A DNA stretch of 64,000 bases from Thermosediminibacteraceae bacterium (GTDB lineage: Bacteria > Bacillota > Thermosediminibacteria > Thermosediminibacterales > Thermosediminibacteraceae), in NCBI GenBank assembly GCA_021890755.1, contig JAKKUQ010000005.1, positions 1 to 64,000 on the forward strand, read 5' to 3'. This document shows, piece by piece, positions 569-30,444 of the stretch. How positions within the stretch are numbered: position 1 is the stretch's first letter; each line of letters begins with the position of its first letter. The position numbers were made by a program, and so were the translations under genes. The notes under the pieces were generated by a model that was not told the origin of the DNA, did no database searches, and saw only the letters and a list, made by a program, of their open reading frames with translations.

Positions 569-596
569 ACATAAGAAAATTTCTTTACATAGAATA
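569..596 (+). promoter_or_regulatory. Putative sigma-K-type promoter for mini-protein 1
   Basis: An AC dinucleotide (569-570) lies 17 nt before CATAGAATA (588-596). This fits the Bacillus sigma-K consensus AC-N16/17-CATANNNTA. It lies 31 nt before the ATG of the 38-residue mini-protein. The -35 element carries little information, so the call leans on the -10 match and on the same arrangement recurring before the second mini-protein. Confidence 0.45.
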
Positions 597-627
597 TCAT
601 AGAAAAAAATAAAAAGGAGGTAACAAA

Positions 628-744
628 ATGGCAGACGTCGCAAGGCCCGGTTGTGGTTTCAGCTGGTGGTGGTTTTTCATCCCATTGATCATATTATTCT
701 TCTTCTTCCCAGTAATCATCATTGTGCTGAGCCAAAAAGTTTAA
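628..744 (+). CDS. Tryptophan-rich hydrophobic mini-protein 1 (38 aa)
   Basis: Thirty-eight residues: start MADV, a short polar part containing one Cys (residue 9), then a W-W-W-F-F cluster (13-17) leading into one Ile/Phe/Val-rich membrane helix (about 18-34) and a short polar tail ending QKV. A strong AAAAGGAGG site lies 8 nt before the ATG. It is monocistronic: possible sigma-K promoter upstream and a strong terminator downstream. It shares the MADV start, the Trp cluster and the helix with the next mini-protein, so the pair is a tandem duplication. I recognise no family. The size and apparent late-sporulation promoter are like those of small spore-coat or YjcZ-type proteins, but the glycine-rich YjcZ signature is absent. 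Confidence 0.7.
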   Translation: MADVARPGCGFSWWWFFIPLIILFFFFPVIIIVLSQKV

Positions 745-752
745 CGTTAGAG

Positions 753-785
753 AAAGCTCCGGTATTTTGCCGGAGCTTTTAATAA
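753..785 (+). terminator. Rho-independent terminator
   Basis: A perfect 10-bp stem (AAAGCTCCGG / CCGGAGCTTT) with a short loop, followed by TTTTAATAAA, directly behind mini-protein 1. Confidence 0.85.
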
Positions 786-802
786 AGTAGTCTTCAACTA
801 TC

Positions 803-830
803 ACCCGCTTTATTAATGCAACATATTATG
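803..830 (+). promoter_or_regulatory. Putative sigma-K-type promoter for mini-protein 2
   Basis: AC (803-804) lies 17 nt before CATATTATG (822-830), one base off CATANNNTA. The spacing is the same as before mini-protein 1. The ATG follows 32 nt later. Confidence 0.4.
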
Positions 831-862
831 ATAATAAGAAAACGGTGAAAGGAGGTATATCA

Positions 863-964
863 ATGGCCGACGTAACCAGCCTCCAAAATTGGTGGTGGTG
901 GTTTTTCCCGATTTTACTGATTATATTCTTCCTGCCGATAGTAATAATAATTCTAGGTAGCTAA
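863..964 (+). CDS. Tryptophan-rich hydrophobic mini-protein 2 (33 aa)
   Basis: Thirty-three residues, a paralogue of the preceding 38-residue protein: MADV start, four consecutive Trp (10-13) then FFP, and a single Leu/Ile/Phe-rich helix (about 16-31) ending LGS. AAAGGAGG sits 7 nt before the ATG. It has its own terminator and a sigma-K-like promoter at the same spacing as its neighbour. The Trp-rich belt at the start of the helix would sit at a membrane interface. Function unknown; a spore or forespore-membrane role is inference from the promoter only. Confidence 0.7.
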   Translation: MADVTSLQNWWWWFFPILLIIFFLPIVIIILGS

Positions 965-981
965 AATGTCCAATACATTTT

Positions 982-1019
982 AAAGCCCCGGACGTATCAT
1001 TTACATCTGGGGCTTTTTT
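982..1019 (+). terminator. Rho-independent terminator
   Basis: Stem AAAGCCCC (982-989) / GGGGCTTT (1009-1016), extended inward by further pairs, then a T run. It terminates mini-protein 2 and lies tail-to-tail with the SHOCT gene. Confidence 0.8.
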
Positions 1020-29011: not shown

Positions 29012-30444
29012 TTAATTGAACACATCGTACATCCTCTTGAGTGCCCCTTCCACGAGACCAGGCAAATCTCTATAAACGCCCTCAATTATTCTCGTATATT
29101 TTTTATTATTTTCCTCATTGGGTGTAAATTTATCTTTTATTCTTACCATATTCCTTACAGCCTCTTCAAATCCACTGTATAAACCTGTAGCAACAGCCAC
29201 ACAGATAGCAGAACCCAAGGAGGCCGCTCCATTTACTACATTCCTCACAGTTTCAACACCGTACACATCCGCAAAAATTTGCATAAACAAATCGCTGTTG
29301 GATCCACCGCCTGATATTATTAAATATTTAGGTTTCATACCAAGTTCATCAATCATAGCATCGTAGTGAATCTTTAACGTCATTGCAATGCCCTCTAATA
29401 ACGAACGGTATATATGCCCCCTGGTATGCCTTTCGTCAAACCCTATAATTACCCCCTTCCTATACAGCTGAGTAGCAGGCGCCAGCCAGTCTGGAATGGT
29501 CAAAAGCTCATCCGAACCTGCTGGGACTGTCGCTGCTTCTTTAGCTAAATAGTCTTCCACTGAATAACCTTCTCTTCTAGCTTTTTCCGCATATTCCTCT
29601 CCAATGATATTCTTATACCAAGTAATCAACCACATTCCCCTTCGAATGCCGTTGCTCTCATAGAGATACCTGTAGGGAATACACGAGAGGTTTGTCCAAT
29701 AATTTTTCGCTGATGGCTCATTTTTGCTCCCACATACCATGGAAGCTATATAAGTTCCCAAAGAGACAAGGCCAACCTCAGGGTCTATAAGCCCCGCACC
29801 CAGAGCTTCTACCGCTTTATCGTTGGCAGTAGCCACTACCGGAATGCCCGCAGGAATACCCGTTTCCCTAGCCGCTTCTTCAGTTACATAACCAGTATCT
29901 CTCCTGGCATTTTTAATTCTAAAAGTTTTTCCCTTGGGATATTGAAGCTATTGAAATATTCTTCATCTTTAGACCACTGCCAGGTATCCACATCAATCGG
30001 AAATTGCCATTGGAATTGATTTGCAGCAGTATCCTTAAGCTCACCGGTCAATCGGTAAGTCAAATATCCGGTGGGAGGACAGGTGTAGCTTATCTCGGGA
30101 GAATCTTCATATTTTTGATACGCACGTATATCCATCCAATTCATAACAGGAGCGGCCAAACTGCCATCGGATTTCATAAATACTCTGCAGCACCTTATTG
30201 AACAAAGTCCCAAGCCCACGATATCTTTTTTATCTCCACTAAATTTCTCCATCAATTTCCTCAAAGCTATTTTAAGGCTCTCCCACAGGTCATCATCCGG
30301 GTGTTCTACATAACCTGGCCGCCTTGATATTACAGGCCTTAACGGCTCCGCAACGCTACAAATCACTTCTCCTTTTTCATTGAAAATCACTACTTTGGTG
30401 CTTTGAGTTCCCTGGTCCACCCCTATTATATATTTGCTGCTCAT
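29012..30444 (-). pseudogene. FGGY-family carbohydrate kinase, frameshifted
   Basis: The 5' frame (30444-29884) has the FGGY N-domain: IIGVDQGTQSTKVVIFNEKG and WMDIRA. The 3' frame (to 29012) has the C-domain: TANDKAVEALGAGLID and LIISGGGSNSDLFMQIFADV. The break is near 29893-29900. Adding one G (GG to GGG) reads PGEILGYVTEEAARETGIPA, the expected junction, and gives 477 residues. It is nearest to xylulokinase-type enzymes; substrate unknown. GGAGGGG precedes the ATG. As it stands no full kinase is made, unless the lesion is a sequence error. Confidence 0.85.

Follow-up and report, generated by a model that had tools for sequence, protein, structure and literature searches.

We propose that two adjacent genes near the start of the window (the whole 64 kb stretch of DNA analysed here) encode single-span mini-proteins, each made from its own mother-cell promoter, and that these proteins are probably a structural, hydrophobic component of the spore envelope or membrane. 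Expression within the mother-cell programme is well supported by the promoter sequences; the actual timing in the cell, a membrane location and a structural part in the spore envelope we infer from the promoters, the design of the proteins and the layout of their genes.

Two tandem genes for tryptophan-rich mini-proteins

The preliminary description of this DNA reported two tiny W-rich open reading frames with ribosome-binding sites and promoter boxes, and all of these are present (Table 1). It was also right about the MADV start and the single hydrophobic helix of both proteins, while its wording of the W cluster had to be corrected: the 38-aa copy reads WWWFF and the 33-aa copy WWWWFF. Each gene is preceded by AGGAGG, a near-perfect Shine-Dalgarno sequence, and is followed, as claimed, by a terminator of its own. 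The folding energy is -21 kcal/mol for either terminator (z = -4.8 each), and a simple terminator scanner overlooked both.

Table 1. Coordinates of the features in and around the gene pair
Feature	Position	Strand	Evidence
YtxH-like gene	131-442	minus	weak family match and reading of the sequence
Sigma-K-type promoter 1: AC (569-570), 17 nt, CATAGAATA (588-596)	569-596	+	read directly; kept in orthologues L004, L005, partly L006
Ribosome-binding site, gene 1: AAGGAGGT	615-622	+	read directly
Gene 1, 38 aa: MADVARPGCGFSWWWFFIPLIILFFFFPVIIIVLSQKV	628-744	+	ORF, homologues, purifying selection, predicted helix 14-37
Hairpin terminator, gene 1	752-780	+	folding
Sigma-K-type promoter 2: AC (803-804), 17 nt, CATATTATG (822-830)	803-830	+	read directly; kept in orthologues
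Ribosome-binding site, gene 2: AAAGGAGG	849-856	+	read directly
Gene 2, 33 aa: MADVTSLQNWWWWFFPILLIIFFLPIVIIILGS	863-964	+	ORF, homologues, purifying selection
Hairpin terminator, gene 2, including T run	982-1019	+	folding
SHOCT-domain gene	1022-1282	minus	domain match
RluB-type pseudouridine synthase gene	from about 1438	+	weak family match and reading of the sequence

The duplication seen in the preliminary description holds at the protein level (local alignment E = 1e-5) but not at the DNA level, where no direct repeat of 11 nt or more was found between the gene copies. Since no DNA repeat remains, the copies are likely to be old, which fits their presence in several genera; old tandem paralogues would be the best explanation of the pair.

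Both proteins have a hydrophobic span of ~20 residues with two prolines, and their maximum 19-residue Kyte-Doolittle values are 3.2 and 3.1. For the gene 1 protein, AlphaFold predicts a single helix (residues 14-37) with a pLDDT of about 90 over most of it, the start of the protein being of low confidence. With a Trp belt at one end and the C-terminal Lys of gene 1 as the only charged anchor, one membrane span should be expected. Synonymous change exceeded replacement change in every scored pair (pairwise pS 0.30-0.79 vs pN 0.04-0.22); the scoring took in each of the four genomes with gene 1, together with five pairs for gene 2, and left out the G008 copy, which has no ATG start. Judged from sequence, genes 1 and 2 are real and evolve as proteins. 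Pfam, NCBIfam and PHROG scans of the two proteins gave no credible match, and we set aside weak poxvirus and LITAF matches as hydrophobic-helix noise.

The product of the SHOCT gene directly behind the gene 2 terminator is a small membrane protein, rich in W, F and G at its start. The gene occurs in some relatives and was not found adjoining the W genes in Fervidicola and Thermovorax. Elsewhere in the window, an FGGY-type sugar kinase recognised by eye (29012-30444, minus) seems split into ORFs 29884-30444 and 29012-29836, possibly by a frameshift or as a pseudogene.

Each gene has a sigma-K-type promoter box

Identical AC-N17 spacing upstream of both genes had been claimed, and the gap between AC and CATA is exactly 17 nt in both; the box ends 31 nt (gene 1) and 32 nt (gene 2) before the ATG. 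The pattern ATCAC-N16/17-CATANNATR occurs at only these two sites in 64 kb, against 0.01 in shuffles, a count that speaks for rarity only as the pattern was shaped on the same sites. Both boxes carry the sigma-K signature (-35 AC and -10 CATANNNTA, about 16-17 nt apart), the gene 2 box having G for the last A. In B. subtilis and C. difficile, sigma-E and sigma-K have a common CATA -10 and differ in the -35, which is ATA for sigma-E and AC for sigma-K (PMC3789822, PMC517825). The P2 promoter of C. difficile sigK also has AC, together with CATATAAT (PMC3789822).

Most orthologues have AC-N16/17-CATANNAT upstream, and the intervening sequence drifts across genera. We found a CAC...CATACTAT box at L005, CAC...CATATTAT upstream of the gene 2 orthologues in L004, L005 and L006, and AATACTAT upstream of gene 1 in L006; L008-L010 keep CATATTATG, with a less clear AC.

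Scanning the own genome with CAC-N16/17-CATANNNTA returned 29 sites vs 21 for the reversed pattern. Because this excess is modest, the box alone is weakly specific. The same box also stands upstream of sigK, at a distance of 28 nt, and of cotJA (PF11007, E = 1.3e-16), at 52 nt. Where a ribosome site and an ORF follow such a box within 70 nt, the genes include gene 1, sigK, cotJA and two more, one for a 56-aa protein carrying an LLFLILILL helix and one for a 316-aa protein whose family is uncertain; a few qualifying boxes stand before ORFs that are very short or truncated, probably by chance. The 56-aa protein (L155), with its FLILILL helix, stands behind CAC-N17-CATATAATA. The 316-aa protein (L150, own genome G000 contig C33) has a faint 2Fe-2S match, lies directly behind a CAC-N17-CATATTTTA box and is a candidate late mother-cell oxidoreductase.

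The sigma-K-like reading put forward in the preliminary description is thus supported by the box kept upstream of most orthologues, by the box at sigK and cotJA, and by a wider family confined to SpoIVA-positive genomes (see below). The spore-coat or mother-cell membrane role, which the preliminary description itself offered as inference, stays tentative.

One or both genes are conserved in the sampled Thermosediminibacteraceae

Using a profile (A1), we found one or both copies in 9/9 sampled Thermosediminibacteraceae genomes and, at a credible E-value, in none of 13 genomes of the sister family. Genomes of the family include Thermosediminibacter litoriperuensis, Fervidicola ferrireducens and Thermovorax subterraneus. 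Single-sequence search recovered both genes in the own genome; of its matches in other families (L013-L021, E 0.05-0.5), most were noise or lay within long ORFs, the exception being L016, which pointed to the FLILILL type described below. A DNA pattern scan of named genomes recovered Thermosediminibacteraceae; further matches, scattered over Shewanella, cyanobacteria and other groups, we treated as chance.

The order YtxH-like gene, W genes, (SHOCT), RluB is kept in all family genomes but G001, whose copy (L012, of a CCCC-tailed type) has none of the usual neighbours in its flanks. Genomes of the family carry Spo0A and sigK, apart from the 83%-complete genome G007, in which Spo0A was not found and the best sigK match fell below the cut-off. 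SpoIVA is present in 7/7 family genomes of the phylum sample.

A probable wider family occurs with sporulation genes in the phylum sample

Profile A1 also matched nine further genomes of the phylum. The common design there is a MAD/MAE/MPE/MTD start, a Gly-rich linker, WWW and 8-12 Ile/Val/Leu, in many cases followed by CCC or FFF and FFP. With profile A2, similar genes of 30-45 aa, often in tandem, were found in 53/399 genomes of the phylum.

The check proposed earlier, a profile search for restriction to spore formers, came out in favour of a restriction to genomes with a sporulation gene within the phylum sample. SpoIVA, a core spore-coat gene, is present in all 53 matched genomes, compared with 336/399 overall, and there were no matches in the 63 SpoIVA-negative genomes (hypergeometric P = 5e-5, a value that carries no correction for kinship). 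Homologues in non-sporulating genera, which would have spoken against the idea, did not appear by genome content; yet Thermosediminibacter oceani, which carries the gene pair along with the Spo0A, sigK and SpoIVA machinery, is recorded as 'sporulation not observed' (PMC3035372). From heated marine sediment, Thermosediminibacteraceae have been obtained in the form of endospore populations (PMC9826295).

Upstream of the wider family, AC-N15-17-CATANNNT occurs in 33 of 77 distinct ORFs vs 0.92 in dinucleotide shuffles, the ORFs not being mutually independent, and CATANNNT alone in 50 of the 77 vs 9.1. Around one third of the wider members have no recognisable CATA box; in several cases such a gene is the second in an apparent operon. 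The wider members fall outside every Pfam and NCBIfam model, and a search of open-access literature text gave no description of these proteins or of Trp-rich mini-proteins in sporulation.

We also observed tandem clusters, each encoding about five proteins of 39-48 aa (L051/L109 in G399 and L103 in G320), in which some members have a WWIWIIII core and others a C-terminal LLxWLFGxxxxG pattern; the L051 cluster has AC-N15-17-CATANNAT boxes upstream. In two genomes (G037 contig C82 and G295 contig C110) a mini-protein match and spoIVA are no more than about 4 kb apart.

A second type of mini-protein was met in the sister-family genome G014, where a different 30-aa type (L016) occurs as three copies close together, two of them with ACC-N16/17-CATATA boxes. 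A profile made from it (A5) matched 35/220 genomes, 35/35 being among the SpoIVA-positive genomes. The own-genome copy (L196, G000 contig C108:62874-62957) reads MAEVGGGSFGGGFFHDRKAFLVFLILILLLLGDNF. This clostridial FLILILL(F)(G/A)D type resembles the WWW type in its 30-aa length, MAD/MGG start, one helix and tandem arrangement, and several of its genes, including the L196 orthologues in the family, stand behind ACC-N16/17-CATATATT. It differs in its core, which is W(A/S)FxLFLILILLFF where the window proteins have WWW.

The members outside Thermosediminibacteraceae could instead be convergent low-complexity peptides, the gene pair then being restricted to the family. The profile is indeed dominated by Trp and Ile, and A2 and the FLILILL type (A5) align over only 14 columns, all N-terminal. 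On the other hand, a reversed-sequence decoy profile of equal composition matched 0/399 genomes and hence the matches go beyond mere composition; moreover, the MA(D/E) start, linker, WWW, length and promoter are all common to the members. We regard convergence as a possible but rather unlikely account.

Discussion

In the model that we favour, sigma-K, and possibly also sigma-E, would drive each gene from its own promoter in the mother cell, late in endospore formation and most likely after engulfment. Each protein would begin with an N-terminal acidic stub, followed by a Trp belt at the membrane interface and then by a single hydrophobic helix, and many copies may serve as a hydrophobic building block of the mother-cell/outer forespore membrane and the spore envelope. 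Abundance is suggested by the strong ribosome sites, by a terminator for each gene and by the tandem copies, and it would speak for a structural component. As between coat and membrane, nothing in the sequence specifically favours the coat.

The main rival holds that the proteins are expressed in the mother cell but are not structural, and that they regulate or permeabilise the membrane; they might, for instance, bind a membrane enzyme or aid mother-cell lysis. The promoter evidence fits this equally well, and single-span mini-proteins of such size commonly act on membrane partners. However, outside the family no gene emerged as a conserved partner, and the tandem copies, up to about five (L051, L103), look more like structural gene dosage. 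We consider such a function unlikely, albeit a serious competitor.

The size, hydrophobicity and tandem layout also recall type I toxins of toxin-antitoxin loci controlled by antisense RNA. Against this, no Rfam antitoxin exceeded its threshold (SpF11 alone appeared, at 25 of 54 bits), phage families yielded nothing credible, and promoter and distribution track sporulation, which makes a toxin highly improbable. Least probable, and to us barely worth entertaining, are leader peptides whose Trp codons attenuate a downstream gene: a short ORF with Trp codon runs is followed by a terminator, but roughly 80 nt or more separate the codons from the terminators, the next gene 3' of gene 2 in the window is on the opposite strand, the same-strand neighbour is an RluB-type pseudouridine synthase and not a Trp gene, and the entire hydrophobic helix past the Trp run is conserved as protein.

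To our knowledge, clostridial spore envelopes have few proteins in common with Bacillus, and most of their small proteins are absent from annotation and family libraries. The signature of a tiny ORF, a Trp belt and an AC-N17-CATA box may yield a testable list of late mother-cell proteins across many spore formers. It may also serve as a genomic marker that a strain is capable of sporulation even where this has never been observed.

Among known small sporulation proteins, SpoVM and CmpA of B. subtilis are mother-cell proteins of <40 aa that act at the forespore surface. Compared by eye only, their sequences show no resemblance to the window proteins; SpoVM is an amphipathic, positively charged helix, whereas the window proteins have a fully hydrophobic span.

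A closer parallel is the YjcZ family, in which a Gly-rich start is joined to one hydrophobic helix. YjcZ (PF09680, YjcZ_2) is, like the window proteins, very small with a single hydrophobic helix, but it lacks their Trp run. In B. subtilis it is part of the sigma-K regulon (PMC517825), and a B. cereus genome carries several members of its family (PMC8313275). PF09680 did not match the window proteins or 22 relatives searched singly; across the genomes of 41 relatives nothing exceeded the cut-off, while B. subtilis does match.

More speculatively, and on balance doubtfully, the WWW and FLILILL types might form one large, unnamed Trp-belt superfamily, a fast-diversifying general late mother-cell component of clostridial spore formers that would build a hydrophobic envelope layer in place of YjcZ-type proteins. 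For the window proteins themselves, the best reading is that they may be a clostridial counterpart in kind of the Bacillus YjcZ, by likeness and with no homology implied.
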